Positions 31,856 through 63,240 of a DNA stretch of 64,000 nt are shown in pieces. The notes under the pieces were generated by a model that saw only the letters and a program-made list of their open reading frames with translations, searched no databases and was not told where the DNA came from. The DNA is taken from assembly GCA_947179485.1 (NCBI GenBank), contig OX359246.1:8680001-8744000 (forward strand), given 5' to 3'. Each line of letters starts with the position of its first letter. Within the stretch, counting starts at the first letter, position 1. The translations under genes were made by a program, and so were the position numbers. The stretch comes from Allacma fusca (lineage: Eukaryota > Arthropoda > Collembola > Symphypleona > Sminthuridae).

Positions 31856-33601
31856 TCAAAACACCATGGAGCAGTTAGAGACTCTCGATACAATTTTATT
31901 GTACAAGTATTCATTGCATAAGTACGCCCACCCCAGAGACGCCACAGCTTCGATTTCCGTTTTAAAGTTCAACTTCCTCAAAGCCTCAGCTTCCCGAATC
32001 CATGCGAGATCATTCTGAAAACACCATCAAGAAATTCAAATCAATACTGAAAAATGAGGACGTTTGTATCTACCCAACGCAACAAGAAGGGGAAAAAAAT
32101 CCAAGAATTACATAAATGCTGATTCTAGAAATTAAAATATCAAGCTTGGTGTAGTCACGGGGCTGGAAAGGGATCTTAGTATCATCAGGGAAACCCAAGG
32201 AGGGGATTTCAGAAGGGAGGACACCAATTAGAACAAGATCAGGAATTACCAAAGAAAGGTTTTCATGAGGAAACTTCTGCTGTGCTACCGAGCCCCACTT
32301 GTAAATCGATGCTATTTCCAGACCATACGGGTCCGCATCGACAAGTACAAAGCTCGGAATTTTTAAATCCCGGCTCAGCTTACTCACAAATGCACGGGTG
32401 GCTTTATCCGGGTAGCCTTTCCCTTCGATTCCAAATCCAAAACCCACAGAAAACAATATTTTATAACCGTTGCATCTCATCACACATTGACGAACCCCAC
32501 CGTTGTCACATCAATAAATATTAACACCACAAACTTGCTCTGATTAAGAGCACAAAAATCTCAGTCTTCATCTAACAAAAATTCAAAATATTCCCAAACA
32601 AGAAAATAAACAATCATTAATAATTGTCCGTGTACACAATACCTCAAGTTACATTTCAATCAGAATTAATTTCACTACCTATTTCCTCCAAAAACACATA
32701 TGTCCAAGTACTTATACTTACCCGTCACCAAAATGAACGGCTCAAATCGATTAAAGATATCCTCCTCAGTCAGCCGATAGAAAATAGCATCCTTCTCAAC
32801 AATCAGCACAAACTTAGCATTCGATCGGAATTTCCCCCATTCTCAATAAACATCAAATAATTAAACAAAATCCCTCAAACACAATCAAACCAAACGCCCA
32901 ACAATCATAAATCACACATTCGCATCATAAAATTACAACCAACAATTAATTTTTTTACTTTTAATCACCCCAAACCGCTGAATTAAAGTCCCAGTTTTGT
33001 CCAATTGAACAGACACCGGCTCACTCTTCCCAACGTCCCTGGTCAATTTCAGATTTCCTCCAGCAGCCATTAGTCCTTTGGCACTTGGGACAAATGGAAG
33101 GGCCGAAGGTTCTACCTATTAGAACATTCAAAACAAATATTACATTTTATTCACCAACTATGTACCCATAAAAAATATTTCAAAACCATAACTTATACAT
33201 GTGCCTCAAAATCCTTCAATCCAATAGGATCCAAATTTTTTAAGACAAATAAAAATCCTCTATAAACCACGAACCTCCAAAAATACTGCTAATTCTTGAA
33301 TTGCTTTATCCACTTGAGACTGATCCCCGTAGAGATTGACATTTTCGTAGTACAGGTCCCTCCGGGTAATTGTCTTCTCTTCTTGGAGTAATTCATGAGC
33401 CTTGCTCATAATTGTCATCATAACCGTGAATTTATTCCGACTCGTGTCCTTCCCCCAGTCCACCTTCTTATTTCTTAAATTCCCTTCCGAATCCTCCAAA
33501 ATCACTTCGAAACATGGCTGCTGTCCTTGACTTATCGACTGCAACATCCCCAGGATAATTTTTTCAATCCGTCCCACTAGAATTAATTTATCGGAGGCCA
33601 T
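31856..33601 (-). CDS. SPO11: Meiotic recombination protein SPO11 (Top6A-like)
   Basis: Five exons, 33601-33275, 33115-32959, 32841-32722, 32422-32112 and 32014-31856, keep phase throughout and give 357 residues, close to the length of short animal SPO11 forms. SPO11 makes meiotic double-strand breaks through a tyrosyl-DNA transesterase reaction, in a complex with a TopoVIB-like partner. The 5Y-CAP domain has TRRDLYYENV, with the adjacent tyrosines 84 and 85; one is catalytic. The TOPRIM metal site is intact: Glu177 in FVLIVEKDA and the Asp pair D230/D232 in VDADPYG. KGYPD, the GxLPSE-type loop and the TEIEA helix near the C-terminus also fit. Exon 1 could instead end at 33268 with acceptor AG at 33112, changing one residue. 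The start lies about 450 bases from the 3' end of the cholesterol oxidase gene. Confidence 0.92.
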
Positions 33602-33761
33602 CTGTTCCGAACTTCACACAACTATTACAATTCCTGGCGGAGGAGACTTCTGGCGGTGCTGTTAGAGGTCCGACGAGCAGGGAGAGACTGAAGCAGCAGT
33701 GAGCGTCCTCCAGCGTGAGCGTGTCTTCTGGCATTGTTCCAAGCTTGTAGCTATTGCAGTA

Positions 33762-33930
33762 GCGTACATATATGAACGTTCCAAGTTTCTATTGAATGAA
33801 ATCCTGGCGTGCGAAAGATATCATTCACAATTGCCTTAACAGGGTGCTCTGTGATGCATTACCAATTAATTTTTAGAACGTTTGGACATATCTCCTGGAT
33901 AATATGACCCTAATTATGATAACCCTAAAC
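33762..33930 (+). repeat. Flanking direct repeat, copy A
   Basis: It shares GAAATCCTGGCGTGCGA (33799-33815), then AG, T and TCA spacing, ACAATTG, ATTAATTT and CCTGGATAATA, in the same order with copy B at 37107-37255. The copies lie on either side of the cholesterol oxidase gene in the same orientation. Only diverged identity remains, so this is old. Confidence 0.6.
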
Positions 33931-34051: not shown

Positions 34052-35943
34052 CTACTGAAACAACGTATGTAATAAATGACTGGAGTAAACCTGGAATGGG
34101 TCAAAACTATTTAAAATTTTCCTGGTGGATTCCCATTGAGTCCAACTTTTCGGAATGTTTTTTTTCAAAAATGAGTCATTTGTCCAGGGGAAATCATGGG
34201 AACTGCTGTAGGCAAAACCTTTGGACCACTCTACCCTCAAAACAGCGAAACTTTCATCAAAAACCTCATCCAAGGAGTTTTGAATTTCTGATACGAACCT
34301 CGAAACTTGAATATTTGAGCGGAAGGTCAGGATATTAAACCAAATAACAGTGTCCAGCTCGGGTCTACCTAAAACAGGGGAGCCTGGACAAATCCCACAA
34401 GTTTGAGCATTGTCGACCCTGACATCTGCCGGATTGTCCACACCTGTCACACGAAGGCAGAGCGGTCCGTTAATGGGGTAACTGTTTCTAGTGCTGAAAT
34501 TTTCAAGTTTGCGGGTATAAATTTGATAGAAGATTCGAAGAACTTTCTCAACATGGCCTCGGGAAGTCACAATGGCCCAGCCGGCCTCAGTCATTTTTAA
34601 TGTTGTTGGCCGGATGTAACTGAAAACATTCCTTGAGGGGCCCCAGATATCCCAAGAGGTTGATACAGTTAGTCCGAGCGGAATGAATTTCGTGTATAAG
34701 CGATTAATCGTTTTGGCGTTATTCCAATGGCTGATTAAATTTCCTAAGAGCGAAGCCAGAGCTTGAGGAAATCTATCTGTGAAGGGGTAATTGTAGGGTG
34801 AGCTGACATATGTAGAGGCCCCAGGTTTGGTTTCTTCTACCGTCCAGACTTTCAGCCATGGATTGGCTGTAAACGGGAACCAAATTACTTCGATTCGACC
34901 GGATGTATTCAGAAATTTGGAAATTGTTCTTAATCCTTCTATCTGTCCAAACAATTCTTCAGCGGAAATGTCTATAAAACTTTGACAACGAAGATGCTGC
35001 AAGGGTCCCGCCCGCATTGTCACATTCGTCACGATCGTTTTCCCCAGATGGGCCAAAAAAGCCCCTGAAACAACATCCGACCGCTGGAATTCTTTTAAGG
35101 TATATTTCCCAGAGAAATCATCGTAAACAATTGCAGTGAACGCCATGATAAGATTGCTTAAGGATCCGAATGTATGTCCTGGAGATAGCGTCTCATTCTC
35201 TGCTGGAACACCTGTACCATGTCCTGCAACGGCTAGGGCGCCACCTAGTGTAATACCTCCAACGGCGGGGTGATTTGAAAATCCTAATTTCCGGCTCTCC
35301 AAAATCTTTAACAAATCCTCCAGCATGACACCAGGCTCCGCCCAAAAGGATGCGTCTCCAGGGTCTGCATTGATAACTTGCATGTTGTTTAAAAATCTTT
35401 GTGTCTTTACTAAAATAATTTTTGGGGGGATTTTCCGGAAACTGTAACAAGACAGCGGGGCCAAGATATATTTTTTGCAGTAGGCCGAATTTTTGTCCAG
35501 ATTGACCGTCAGAGGGGACCAGCTGTGCATGGCTCCACTGGCTCGAACAGTGTAGTTATAATCTTTGGCCCAATTAATTAGAATTACGATCTCCTCCGCC
35601 GATTTTGGATAAACTGTCCAAACATCGTTTGCGATGACCTCATCTGCCCAATTGACAAAATTGCTAAGTTCCAAGGAAATATTCTTGGGGAAATTAGGTG
35701 GCTTTGGGAATCCTGTTGGTAAATGTTGTCGAGTTAGTACACCAGAATTCATTTAAAATATCAACTTAAATGCCAATATTTTGCAAAAAACAATCAACGC
35801 AAGGTGTCAGTACCTGAGTTAAATTCGAAGTTGAAAACCACAGCGATGGAAGGAATTATGATTCCAAACAAAATTGGGTAGAAGAACTTGACCTTAGAGT
35901 GGGTCGTGGTTGCTGGTTGCCCCTTCAATTTTCGTACACTCAT
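34052..35943 (-). CDS. VAO-type (class II) cholesterol oxidase with N-terminal membrane anchor
   Basis: Exon 1, 35943-35814, and exon 2, 35712-34052, join at phase 1 across a 101-base GT-AG intron, giving 596 residues. The enzyme should oxidise and isomerise the 3beta-hydroxyl of cholesterol to cholest-4-en-3-one, making hydrogen peroxide. Residues 21-38 form a hydrophobic anchor after a basic start. The FAD-binding fold follows (about 70-235: VWTVYPKSAEEIV; GAMHSWSPL with His106, the likely covalent flavin site; GVMLEDLLKIL; GGITLGGALAVAGHGT). The long substrate-binding domain includes LRCQSFIDISAEELF, EVIWFPFTANPWLKVW and PYNYPFTDRFP. Such enzymes are known from actinobacteria and proteobacteria. 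Exon 2 has 1.66 kb without an intron, while neighbours have introns every 100-600 bases. An in-frame ATG at 36030 would add 29 residues. Horizontal origin is inferred; an animal VAO homologue with another substrate is the alternative. Confidence 0.82.
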
Positions 35944-37106: not shown

Positions 37107-37255
37107 TGCGCACATAAATATAATTACTGACAAGGTAACTGTCCCGAAGGAAATCCTGGCGTGCGAGAGGTGTCAAATACAATTGCGTGATCTTGTTAAT
37201 TAATTTAACACTTGCGTATCCCCTGGATAATACAACTTAATTAGGGTAGTCCCGA
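37107..37255 (+). repeat. Flanking direct repeat, copy B
   Basis: Partner of copy A (33762-33930). The best block, GAAATCCTGGCGTGCGA at 37150-37166, is identical in both copies; identity then falls, with short indels, to the CCTGGATAATA block. Distance between copies is about 3.3 kb. Confidence 0.6.
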
Positions 37256-38766: not shown

Positions 38767-40816
38767 ATGGTCTCGTTTTTACTGGCCTTGCTGGGGCTAG
38801 CAGCTGCTTTGGTCTATTATTTTCTCTGCAATGGTGGCAGTGACTCCAAAGGGAAATATCCTCCTGGTATTTCCAATCTAAAATTTCCTTTAAAAATATT
38901 TTCGAATCTATATACTCAAATATAATAATATTTATTTCATAACATAAGATATGATTAATTATATGCTTACAAAATACCTGGAAATAAAAACATTATTTTG
39001 ACATCTGCAGCCCCCCGACTGGCTCTCCCATTTATCGGCCATTTGCATTTACTGGGGGCGAAGCCCCACGTGACCTTTCTCAGGTGGAGCCAGAAGCACG
39101 GGAAAATATTTTCCGCCCAGCTTGGGCAATACAAGTAAATTAAATTAATTCAATAATTCATTATAAATACTTAATAACAGTTGCATTATAAATTTAAAAT
39201 TATCCCAATACATCTGGGCACATGGTTGGGACTGACTTTCAGAGTCCTGGTCATAAATGGTCACAAGGAAATCCAGCTCGTGTTGAATGACAGTCGGATC
39301 ACTGGGAGACCTCAATTCCCTCTCTTGGAGACCCTCACAAACGGACCAAATGGTATGGAAAGACGTTTTTTCTGTACCATTTAATATTTTAAAAATTATT
39401 GTGTAATTATTACGTTTTTATATCTATTTCTGAAGGTATCCAGAACAATAGGACGGAATCATGGAACGATCTCCGGCGCTTTACCTTGCACAACCTCAAG
39501 GGCTTGGGCATTGGCAGGGGACTCCAGAGCCTCAATATTCAATCTGAAATAGCACATCTCCAGGGAAATCTTTCTAAGGCCAGAGGCCCTGTAGATATCA
39601 AAACTGCTGTCCTTGAGGCCATGGGTAGTTCAGTATGGGAGATTGTGGCTGGCCAACGCCTGGAAGATGAATTCGTATTGAGGACATTAAGGAATATTGA
39701 CAGGTAATTGTATTTTTTCAATACGCTGGAATAACTTCGGAAATTGTATCAACATTAGGGATTTTTGCATTTCTTACAGCATTTTTTTAATTTAAAATTT
39801 TGTATGAGAAGATGTGTAAACAAAATTGGGGTAGCTACGTATTTCCCTCACTGGTCAACCCCCTTGTTGGTCCCTGTTTGGAAGGAGTTAGCATTGCTGT
39901 CGGGACATCTGGCGGAGTTCCAGCATAAGCAAATTGAGGATCACGTGAAGAGTTTAGATCCAGAACATCCTCGGGATTTCATAGATTTGTTCATCATGGA
40001 CAGCACTCTCCGGAAACAAGACTTAGTGTCCGTAATGAACGAGTTCCTGATTGGGGGATGTCTTCCGACAGCTTGGACATTGGCCTGGGCTATTCTGTAT
40101 TTGTCGGTGAATCCAGATGTGCAAGACGGACTTCAGGAGGAAATTGACTCTGTCCTGGGATCCACTCAGCCTACAATGGAGGCTAGACCGAAGTAAACAA
40201 AATTAAAAGTAAAAATCGTCACAAATGTCTCGGTGTGAATTTCCCTGGAAGAAATTTTTTTCCGAATCCGAAAATAATTACAAAATTACCTAAATATACC
40301 AAATTTTAAAATTTTATCAGGATAAAATATCTTTGTACATGTTTTTTTACTCTGTTTTGCAGGATGCCATTAGCCATTGCAGTTTTGATGGAAACATTAC
40401 GAAAGTCATCTTTTTTTCCGTTGGGGGTATTCCATTCAACGACGGAGGATATGACCCTTTTTGACTTCCAGATACCAAAGGATACCATCATTTGCGCCAA
40501 CTTATACTCGGCTCATCATGACGTGGAGGTTTGGACTGATCCCGATAATTTCCGGCCGTCCAGATTCATTGCACCGGACGGGAACGGTGGGAAAAAATTA
40601 CTCCGGAATGAGGCCTCCATCCCGTTCTCTACAGGGAAACGGTCCTGCGTGGGGGAGCTTATGGCAAAAGAACTACTCTTTCTATATTTGACTAGTTTAT
40701 TCCAAAAATTTACATTCCGACTTTCGAATGAGGCTGAAATCACGAGGGACATTGAGTCTCGTGGGGGATTTTTATCCTTGCCCCCCGACTTTAATGTAGT
40801 GGTCACGGAGAGGTGA
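38767..40816 (+). CDS. Cytochrome P450, probably CYP2 clan, atypical I-helix
   Basis: Six exons, 38767-38866, 39011-39134, 39243-39352, 39436-39703, 39812-40192 and 40363-40816, give 478 residues. An N-terminal membrane anchor (FLLALLGLAAALVYYFL) and the proline hinge YPPGAPRLALPFIGHL indicate a microsomal P450. The ExxR motif is ETLR (338-341), the PERF-type motif is FRPSRF, and the haem loop is FSTGKRSCVGE with Cys423. IPKDTIICANLYSAHHD resembles CYP2-clan enzymes. The I-helix reads GGCLPTA (282-288) where A/G-G-x-D/E-T-T is usual, so the acid-alcohol pair for oxygen activation is missing. Exons 3 and 5 have weak acceptors chosen by phase. An open frame also runs upstream of exon 3 to 39181, after a strong acceptor, but its phase does not fit exon 2. 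Substrate unknown. Confidence 0.85.
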
Positions 40817-42039: not shown

Positions 42040-42280
42040 GAACAAACATACTTCGCCCACACAAAATCGGGACGAAAACGCGGTCATTAAAATTGTCTCC
42101 ACATAAGTTCGCGATGGGGACAAAATTTTTCCCCACATTAAATAGGGACGGGACACGGACAGCAAGATTGTCCCCGTAGATAATCTGGACGGGGACAGAC
42201 AAATTGTCGCAACAGATAATCGGGACTGGACGGGGACAGCAAAATTGTCCCCGTAGATAATAGGGACATTAGGGACCCGA
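42040..42280. repeat. GC-rich degenerate minisatellite
   Basis: About six units of roughly 33-46 bases, starting near 42042, 42088, 42121, 42164, 42200 and 42241. The core reads CAAAATTGTCCCCGTAGATA followed by ATxGGGAC. The last three units are best preserved. GC content is strikingly higher than the AT-rich surroundings. A sequence like CAGGGCCGTCCC at about 42007-42018 just before it resembles a hAT terminus, so the array may be the subterminal region of a truncated element; no matching right end was found. Confidence 0.7.
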
Positions 42281-61711: not shown

Positions 61712-63240
61712 TAATTTAATAATTATCTAATCTTCCCTATGATTTATATTTGTTTCGGTAATTCCCTTGTATTTTCAAATTATACAGCGCCTTTGGATTT
61801 TCAAATAAACGCAATTTTAATTACCATAAATAATTCACACGTGAAACCTTCCTGTAGCCGGTTATACCTCAGCCCTTACAACCCATCACATGTCCGTTTG
61901 ATGTCCAATCTCAAATAAAATATATGAAAATAGAAGAATATTTCCTTCCCGATCTCTCCTCGCCTTAGCTCATCTAGAGTCAGGTATTTACAGTTCAATC
62001 CGAATACTTTTAGTGGGTTTTTGCATTAACCTTAAAAATCCGAATACTTTTATTGGGTTTTCGGATCGACGATCGACCTTAAAAATCCAAATACTTTTAT
62101 TGGGTTTTCGGATCGACCTTAAAAATTCGAATATTATGGCTAATTTAACGAATTGTCCGGAAATAGTTTGACCGATATTATTTGTCCTCCAAGTTGTAAG
62201 TACTTAAATTGTATCCGGAAATGGATATTCCTCACGTTTTTGAGTTATTTCTAGCATTCCTTATGCTGTGAATTGTCAGATACCTTTCTGACAAGCCAGT
62301 AAAATATGCAACAAAATAGTTTCAATATTTTTGAGATTTATAGATACACAAATCAAAAGAATTCCTCAAGACTTTACTTTGATTCATGTTTTTGACCTTT
62401 GACCTTTAATGAACCCAAAGTTGAACCAGCCACCAGGTCAATGCAGCAAAGTCTAAAAAATCTGGACAAAATTCGCTATAAACGAGCAGATATGAACCAT
62501 TTATGGTGACTTTAATTTAAACTGAGGACTGATTGTGAGTTCTGTTGTAAAAATTATATTACACATATGTAATATCTATGTCTCATTTACAAAACAATGA
62601 TTTGTTCTTGACAATGATGTCATGTATTAAATATCATCTCCTACTTCTTGATTCACATCCTGTTGTTTTCATCTAACTCGCTGACTATTATGCGAACATT
62701 GCGAACCTTACATTTATTGTCAGGGCTTTATTTACTATTTGATGGAATCATGACTTACAATTAATGCATTACTGTTATTCCTACGTAACAATATATACAA
62801 CAAAAAAATTGCATTAATTTTGCAAAAAACGAATCGTCGAGCAAGGTCATCGGGTAATGTCCAACCGGTCTATTAACTAAAATAAAATTAGTGAATAAAA
62901 CTCGAAACAAATGACAAAAGTAGTGCTTTTGATACGGACATCAATAGCAGGGTAGACAAATGCTCATGCACATCCCTCCTATTTTAAAAATCCTCCTTTA
63001 AAAGTTACTGACATGGAATAGATGCTCAAGCATGAGCTGACAGAAGCTGCAGGGCTCTTCCCTCTATGAGCATTTAAATGAACAATTCCCACAAGCGTTG
63101 ACACTGTAACTACTCCCAGCGCCCTAAGTGAGCATTGCCCGGACTAAATTCCATACACGAGAATACACCGCCACACTCCATCATCACAGCCTAAATTCAC
63201 ATAGTCTTAGAGAGAGCACACGGACGAAGGTGGAAGTCGT
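61712..63240. other. Intergenic between LSG1 and RPL27
   Basis: Apart from the LSG1 3'UTR and the tandem repeat at 62000-62130, no gene or motif is supported. The region before 63277 should contain the RPL27 promoter. Confidence 0.5.
62000..62130. repeat. 40-base tandem repeat, about 3.2 copies
   Basis: Units begin at 62000, 62040, 62087 and 62127 with CCGAATACTTTTATTGGGTT, followed by TTCGGATCGACCTTAAAAAT. The second unit is 47 bases because GATCGAC is duplicated within it, so slippage is visible. The first unit is the most diverged in its second half. Confidence 0.9.

Follow-up and report, generated by a model that had tools for sequence, protein, structure and literature searches.

A cholesterol oxidase gene of bacterial type in an animal chromosome raises the questions of whether it belongs there, where it came from and whether it still encodes the enzyme after which its family is named. 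Such a gene had been placed at positions 34052-35943 of the window, the whole stretch of 64,000 nucleotides analysed here (positions 8680001-8744000 of contig C8), by an earlier note that took it for an old, intact and probably functional horizontal transfer. The present analysis confirms a real, chromosomal and apparently spliced gene, one member of an expanded arthropod family of class II cholesterol oxidase relatives whose origin was probably by transfer.

Gene model and chromosomal setting

Contig C8 is 75.6 Mb long, in an assembly of 392.7 Mb and 91 contigs. That the chromosome belongs to an animal is supported, since the genome holds at least 150 scored matches to the RR cuticle-protein family PF00379, from which the host is taken to be an arthropod. 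Arthropods require dietary sterols. A search of the genome found no match to a sterol cyclase, as expected for a sterol-requiring arthropod, although a gene divided into many small exons could have escaped it.

SPO11 and cytochrome P450 genes do flank the gene, and both were confirmed by domain matches on either side (Table 1). Farther out in the window lie a ZIP transporter, a WD40 protein with a weak COPI match, a GTPase and a Rel-homology domain; ten frames were covered by the neighbour scan, one of them without a family. A search of the window for tRNA genes found none. Tandem repeats with units of 41 and 40 bases, in about three copies each, occupy positions 42141-42267 and 61997-62133 of the window. 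A 41-base direct repeat, 83% identical between its copies at 33794-33834 and 37146-37186, flanks the gene and is perhaps a dispersed element.

Table 1. Features of the locus and its neighbours (window positions)
Feature	Position	Strand	Details
Uninterrupted frame	34052..35752	-	566 codons
Two-exon model	35943-35814 + 35712-34052	-	596 residues, predicted from sequence
Exon 1	35814..35943	-	43 codons and one base; hydrophobic N-terminal segment, candidate signal anchor or signal peptide
Intron	35713..35813	-	Predicted; 101 bases, GT-AG; TACTAAC ends 20 bases before the intron end
Exon 2	34052..35712	-	Entire enzyme body and stop codon
AATAAA	34046..34051	-	Directly 3' of the TAG stop; candidate polyadenylation signal
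PF01565 (FAD_binding_4), best stretch	35201..35419	-	Residues 112-184 of the 566-residue frame, E 1.2e-11
PF09129 (cholesterol oxidase substrate-binding domain)	34058..34993	-	Residues 254-565 of the 566-residue frame, E 1.2e-88
His106 codon	35525..35527	-	Aligns with the histidine that binds FAD covalently in B. sterolicum (His121, or His69 in mature numbering)
Glu311 equivalent (B. sterolicum numbering)	34889..34891	-	By alignment; Glu in the window copy
Place of Glu475 (B. sterolicum numbering)	34457..34459	-	By alignment; the window copy has Cys and L002 has Gly
Arg477 equivalent (B. sterolicum numbering)	34451..34453	-	By alignment; Arg in the window copy
SPO11 neighbour	32070..33613	-	Two open frames: PF21180, 2.5e-22 (32070-32507), and PF04406, 5.4e-18 (33260-33613)
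Cytochrome P450 neighbour	39759..40813	+	Two open frames: PF00067, 1.3e-20 and 6.1e-38

Among the window's 47 stop-to-stop frames with at least 100 amino acids, the one that carries the enzyme is the longest, followed by one of 322. The coordinates and anatomy given earlier were confirmed by the enzyme's frame, by its domains and by the two-exon model. The main exon is intron-less, as had been described, with the whole enzyme body in one frame whereas the adjoining SPO11 and P450 genes are split, and the spliceosomal intron that had been claimed corresponds to a predicted GT-AG intron. The donor of exon 1 is CAG/GTACTG, in phase 1. Hydropathy, with a mean of 2.51 across 15 residues of exon 1, is the sole basis on which a signal sequence is proposed. 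A comparable exon was found in the sister copy L002, with FEFN near the exon end in both, and short signal-peptide-like starts in the copies L003, L007 and L008. The hydrophobic stretch is preceded by about 22 residues in the window copy and by about 12 in L002 and L005.

The gene has a GC3 of 0.45; the values for seven stretches nearby, one of them with a stop in it, are 0.44-0.50. Chromosomal residence is combined with the features of a host gene, namely host-like GC3, flanking genes and a predicted intron. Seven N-glycosylation sequons are present in the predicted protein. A bacterial terminator scan found no terminator-like sites (shuffles, 2.6); 11 promoter-like matches (shuffles, 6.3; sd, 2.4) were discounted as not meaningful in AT-rich animal DNA.

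Sequence family and active-site residues

Both domain matches lie above the curated cut-offs of Pfam, and the joining of PF09129 to PF01565 places the window copy in the class II cholesterol oxidase sequence family. NCBIfam returned four matches, all far under the cut-offs, the best three being models of FAD-linked oxidoreductases. Three distinct sequences, deposited as cholesterol oxidase or oxidoreductase, were retrieved from the PDB with phmmer (3js8, 1i19 and 2i0k). The match to 3js8 extends over residues 17-564 of 566 (E 3.3e-125), and that to 1i19/2i0k of Brevibacterium sterolicum is weaker (E 1.2e-100).

According to one paper, the FAD of the class II enzyme is attached to His121, and crucial roles fall to Glu475 and Arg477 (PMC7588053); another gives a specific activity 35-fold lower for a non-covalent form of the enzyme (PMC2890692). 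His121, Glu311, Glu475 and Arg477 are each invariant in 35 of 35 bacterial rows of the alignment, rows that comprise 29 of 80 genome loci, four plasmid loci and two PDB sequences. These rows are interdependent, with two from Chromobacterium nearly identical to 3js8, and the list of 80 loci is biased toward the best matches of L005. Glu311 presumably has a catalytic role, and we take Glu475 to be an oxygen gate. At the flavin-His position 2i0k has Ala where 1i19 has His.

The intact copies in the host genome (n=13) keep His121 in 10 cases, Glu311 in nine, Glu475 in 11 and Arg477 in 12; all four residues are kept in seven of them (L003, L004, L005, L009, L011, L013 and L014). Because His121 is absent in three of the 13 copies and Glu311 in four, sterol oxidation is regarded as unconserved across the family. 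The window copy and L002 both keep His121, Glu311 and Arg477 and have Cys and Gly, respectively, in place of Glu475. The candidate flavin-attachment histidine named in the earlier note falls at exactly residue 106 of the 596-residue model, and its flavinylation is predicted. The bacterial rows have 65 invariant columns, of which 58 are kept by the window copy, 58 by L002, 59 by L003, 59 by L004, 61 by L005 and 40-45 by the eight other own copies; the window copy and L002 depart at the identical seven sites.

Judged by these residues, the window copy is a divergent, non-canonical member of the class II cholesterol oxidase sequence family, and the Cys that stands in for Glu475 keeps it from being filed as a canonical cholesterol oxidase. 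The earlier description of a complete VAO-type cholesterol oxidase stands as regards the two domains and the completeness of the substrate-binding domain, and needs qualifying for the Cys in the position of B. sterolicum Glu475.

The window gene is under purifying selection: dN/dS against L002 is 0.156, at a dS of 1.5 that is near saturation. Ratios against L003, L004 and L005 mean little, since dS is infinite by the formula for the first two and 3.29 for the last. Six pairs of short copies on contig C1 gave dN/dS of 0.18-0.23, and the pair L007-L008 gave 0.61. Of the view that the gene is intact and probably functional, the intact frame and the selection on it are upheld; function as a cholesterol oxidase is made less likely by Cys here and Gly in L002, where all 35 bacterial rows have Glu.

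The gene family and its bacterial relatives

The gene had been reported alone; it is real, and belongs to a set of at least 19 loci spread over the four contigs C1, C8, C10 and C12 (59-82 Mb). A protein search of the genome gave at least 36 matching pieces and the PF09129 profile at least 21, and pieces were joined by hand into the 19 loci. An intact long frame, meaning the enzyme body in one frame, is present at 13 of these (the window copy, L002, L003, L004, L005, L007, L008, L009, L010a, L010b, L011, L013 and L014), and six are broken or fragmentary (L006, L012, L015, L016, L017 and L018), so that copies of the family do decay. L002 is 65% identical to the window copy, and the five further own copies in the alignment are 30-49% identical to it.

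Short copies of about 500 codons form a partly clustered group on C1, at 28275959-28314069 (L011-L014), 40396763-40401249 (L010) and 41271075-41272532 (L009). They have a deletion inside the substrate-binding domain; one copy of the group has 567 codons with the signal in frame, and L012 is a fragment. Glu475 is present in all intact copies of this group and the flavin His in all except L010b. At C12:38959178-39014000 lie L007 and L008, 93% identical, together with the fragment L018. L007 and L008 have Phe at the flavin His and Gly at Glu311, and are possibly decaying or non-enzymatic. The 500-residue copies of C1 and L007/L008 may be non-oxidases.

Exons were picked by hydropathy and a look at splice sites, and the gene structures are predictions from sequence. 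On this basis a hydrophobic exon 1 and a phase-1 intron near the first domain motif were modelled in nine of 12 copies examined. Seven of these nine modelled introns are 93-150 bases long; the lengths of the other two are 551 and 601 bases. No signal exon was found under the exon filter for L013, L014 and L010b, the exon model of L004 is undecided, and L010a has a hydrophobic start in the same frame as the body. An AG in the phase-1 register lies within 11 bases of the domain-start motif in 12 of 12 copies, with AGs in other phases nearby in some. The shared exon and intron are the pattern expected if a host secretory exon was gained once and duplication at the DNA level followed. The claim that the transfer is old gains support from an intron position common to diverged paralogues.

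Bacterial relatives were sought by an alignment-based scan of contigs from 84,980 prokaryote species, which gave 295 stretches encoding relatives, of which the best 80 were kept. Closest among these 80 was Sorangium cellulosum (two loci, L042 and L122), with 49-51% identity to L005 and 42% to the window copy. The window copy reaches 42-43% identity with its best bacterial match, and bacterial relatives of the own copies stand at 38-51%. Relatives occur in six of 282 genomes of the Sorangium phylum (three strong, including Sorangium itself, and three weak) and, within the Litorivivens class, in two genomes out of 369, that of Litorivivens and one whose match is partial and contains a stop. With homologues so patchy among bacteria, no donor is named. 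Ten plasmid records matched, all below 60% identity. An earlier single-protein scan of prokaryote contigs gave 16 pattern matches, none a relative, and was superseded by the alignment scan; two pattern matches in viral contigs, considered for a viral carrier, were likewise not relatives. PF09129 was found in none of 14 control genomes, a result uninformative on animals because the controls are probably prokaryotic, as the two named ones are.

Two of the bacterial loci have features of their own. L129, from the Sorangium phylum, is a frame of 2132 amino acids with a cholesterol-oxidase-like stretch of about 30% identity, apparently a multidomain protein. On a plasmid of Burkholderia stagnalis (L134) the homologue lies between genes for a thioesterase domain, a methyltransferase and a non-ribosomal peptide synthetase, neighbours suggesting a role in specialised metabolism.

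In an unrooted tree of 48 rows a single branch separates the 13 intact own copies from all other rows (97/95), as happens in 96% of 200 bootstrap trees. An earlier version with 49 rows, which included L128 in a wrong frame (branch length 10), gave 99/99 for the own copies. A single origin of the copies in this genome is well supported in analyses without far outgroups. A rooted tree of 32 rows was made with two outgroup rows, omitting eight fast own copies, 11 near-duplicate bacterial rows, L129, L130 and L133. The five slower own copies again stand on one side of a branch (100/99). The bacterial group within which they lie (93/99, not starred) is a mixed one, with sequences from Sorangium, Solimonas, Litorivivens, one further bacterium and actinobacteria. 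Constraining the bacteria to monophyly was 1.61 log units worse and was not rejected (AU p 0.069). In a 53-row tree with the fast copies and far outgroups, in which L128 was re-read and L129-L132 were added, the outgroup attaches within the own copies, next to the long branch of L007/L008, and only 6% of 200 bootstrap trees set the own copies apart by one branch. This placement is treated as long-branch attraction, in line with a warning from the tree program that long branches meet at that point; it still counts against the certainty of nesting.

Transfer from bacteria is the better reading, with nesting inside bacteria, the donor and the direction of transfer all unproven. On phylogeny the earlier claim of transfer is favoured by the nesting in the pruned rooted tree, and held back by the unrejected constraint and by the loss of nesting in the 53-row tree. 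The larger interpretation holds in part, for the gene, its histidine, its setting, the predicted intron and the codon constraint, and is qualified by unproven nesting and a weakened case for canonical function. No report of cholesterol oxidase transfer to arthropods or other animals was found in the literature, judged largely from abstracts and with arthropod genome annotations outside the scope. A 2026 paper that surveyed 319 arthropod genomes for fused transferred genes does not contain the word cholesterol in its main text, as far as available (PMC13389597), and the one paper found to name PF09129 concerns gut bacteria.

Readings of the locus and comparison with known systems

Bacterial contamination or misassembly is of negligible probability, in agreement with the earlier note. 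Its sole point is that the family name is known from bacteria, and it is contradicted by the gene's place between SPO11 and P450 within a contig of 75.6 Mb, by paralogues on four contigs of 59-82 Mb, by the predicted GT-AG intron and host-like GC3, and by a best bacterial identity to the window copy of just 42-43%. A rather unlikely reading, to be taken more seriously, is that the family is older or wider in eukaryotes and reached this genome by vertical inheritance with losses, or by transfer from another eukaryote, and not by direct capture from bacteria. The unrejected monophyly of the bacteria (AU p 0.069), the outgroup falling among the own copies when far outgroups are included, the long branches that separate these copies, and a comparison drawn from prokaryotes, plasmids and viruses would all agree with it. 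The placing of the own copies within the bacterial rows of the pruned rooted tree (93/99) and the many bacterial relatives at 38-51% identity argue for capture from bacteria, as do 13 copies whose enzyme body occupies a single frame while SPO11 and P450 alongside are split, although the intron-less body of these 13 follows from the definition of an intact copy.

As regards function, the window copy and L002 may be a neofunctionalised pair, covalent flavoenzymes that act as a dehydrogenase or on another alcohol while other members keep the original reaction; we give this somewhat less than an even chance. Glu475 is absent in both (Cys and Gly) with His121, Glu311 and Arg477 kept, they depart from the bacterial-invariant columns at the identical seven of 65 and yet are under purifying selection, and the window copy has its longer run of residues ahead of the hydrophobic stretch (about 22, against about 12 in L002 and L005). 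Retention of 58 of the 65 columns and a complete substrate-binding domain speak against it. It is very improbable that the window locus is a decaying, functionless remnant: six of the 19 loci are broken or fragmentary and L007-L008 look relaxed (dN/dS 0.61, His and Glu311 absent), whereas the window copy has an uninterrupted frame of 566 codons, plausible splice sites and a dN/dS of 0.156 against L002.

On balance we lean toward an old acquisition of a bacterial gene, to which a host secretory exon was added and which expanded into a family of sterol 3-hydroxyl oxidases from which the window copy diverged. The account is based on homology, the family, tree grouping, residue states and codon constraint, together with the predicted exon 1 and intron; from these we infer transfer, secretion, reaction and substrate. 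An arthropod ancestor would have acquired one bacterial gene for a class II (VAO-type, covalent-FAD) cholesterol oxidase. A host exon for a signal peptide or signal anchor would have replaced the bacterial export signal, with a phase-1 intron just before the mature domain, and multiplication at the DNA level would have given the at least 19 loci on four large contigs, the intron being kept in most copies where it can be checked. The products would most likely enter the secretory pathway by way of exon 1. FAD may be bound covalently at His106, take a hydride from a steroid 3-hydroxyl and be reoxidised by O2, which would yield a 3-keto steroid and H2O2 from dietary sterols or from host steroids or steroid hormones. 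In the window copy the loss of the Glu of the Glu-Arg pair should alter oxygen access or the charge balance of the active site, and its oxygen reactivity or substrate has probably changed.

A more specific proposal, which we consider improbable, is that the family are secreted steroid 3-oxidases acting on the animal's own moulting hormones or their precursors, an analogue of ecdysone oxidase, with the window copy and L002 retuned at the oxygen-gate residue and other copies turned into non-flavinylated binding or decoy proteins. Insect ecdysone oxidase belongs to the GMC family and oxidises a steroid 3-hydroxyl with O2. The reaction on a steroid 3-hydroxyl in an arthropod would be alike, the protein family is unrelated, and the enzyme would be an analogue only.

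In a paper already cited, cholesterol oxidase activity is called 'unique to bacteria' and a Streptomyces cholesterol oxidase is described as developed as an insecticide (PMC2890692). An arthropod with a class II-type gene family would own sterol-oxidising chemistry, made and presumably tolerated by the animal. Copies with all four residues, without one of them and without the flavin His, apparently of single origin, form a natural series in which to study the secretion, flavinylation and remodelling of a bacterial oxidase after its capture by an animal. The signal-type exon and phase-1 intron that the copies share would be a clear example of a bacterial secreted enzyme made exportable in a eukaryote.

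Among known systems, class I cholesterol oxidase, a GMC-type enzyme, has the reaction name in common with the window copy and was not matched by it in the Pfam and PDB searches. The two classes are described in the paper that calls the activity bacterial as having no significant sequence identity and different folds, with non-covalent FAD in class I (PMC2890692). The Sorangium cellulosum homologue is the closest bacterial sequence found and, unlike the window copy, keeps Glu475; it is a bacterial gene and not clearly the donor. The class II enzyme of Brevibacterium sterolicum (1i19, 2i0k) has the sequence family and the covalent-flavin His in common with the window copy; it differs as 3js8 does, and is more distant. 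The class II (VAO-type) cholesterol oxidase of Chromobacterium sp. DS-1 (3js8) shares both domains with the window copy, which has equivalents of its flavin His, Glu311 and Arg477. The window copy differs from 3js8 in the Cys at the Glu475 equivalent, in additional residues at about 84-110 of the 566-residue frame, in its sequons, and in a predicted N-terminal host exon with a hydrophobic segment, followed by a predicted intron.
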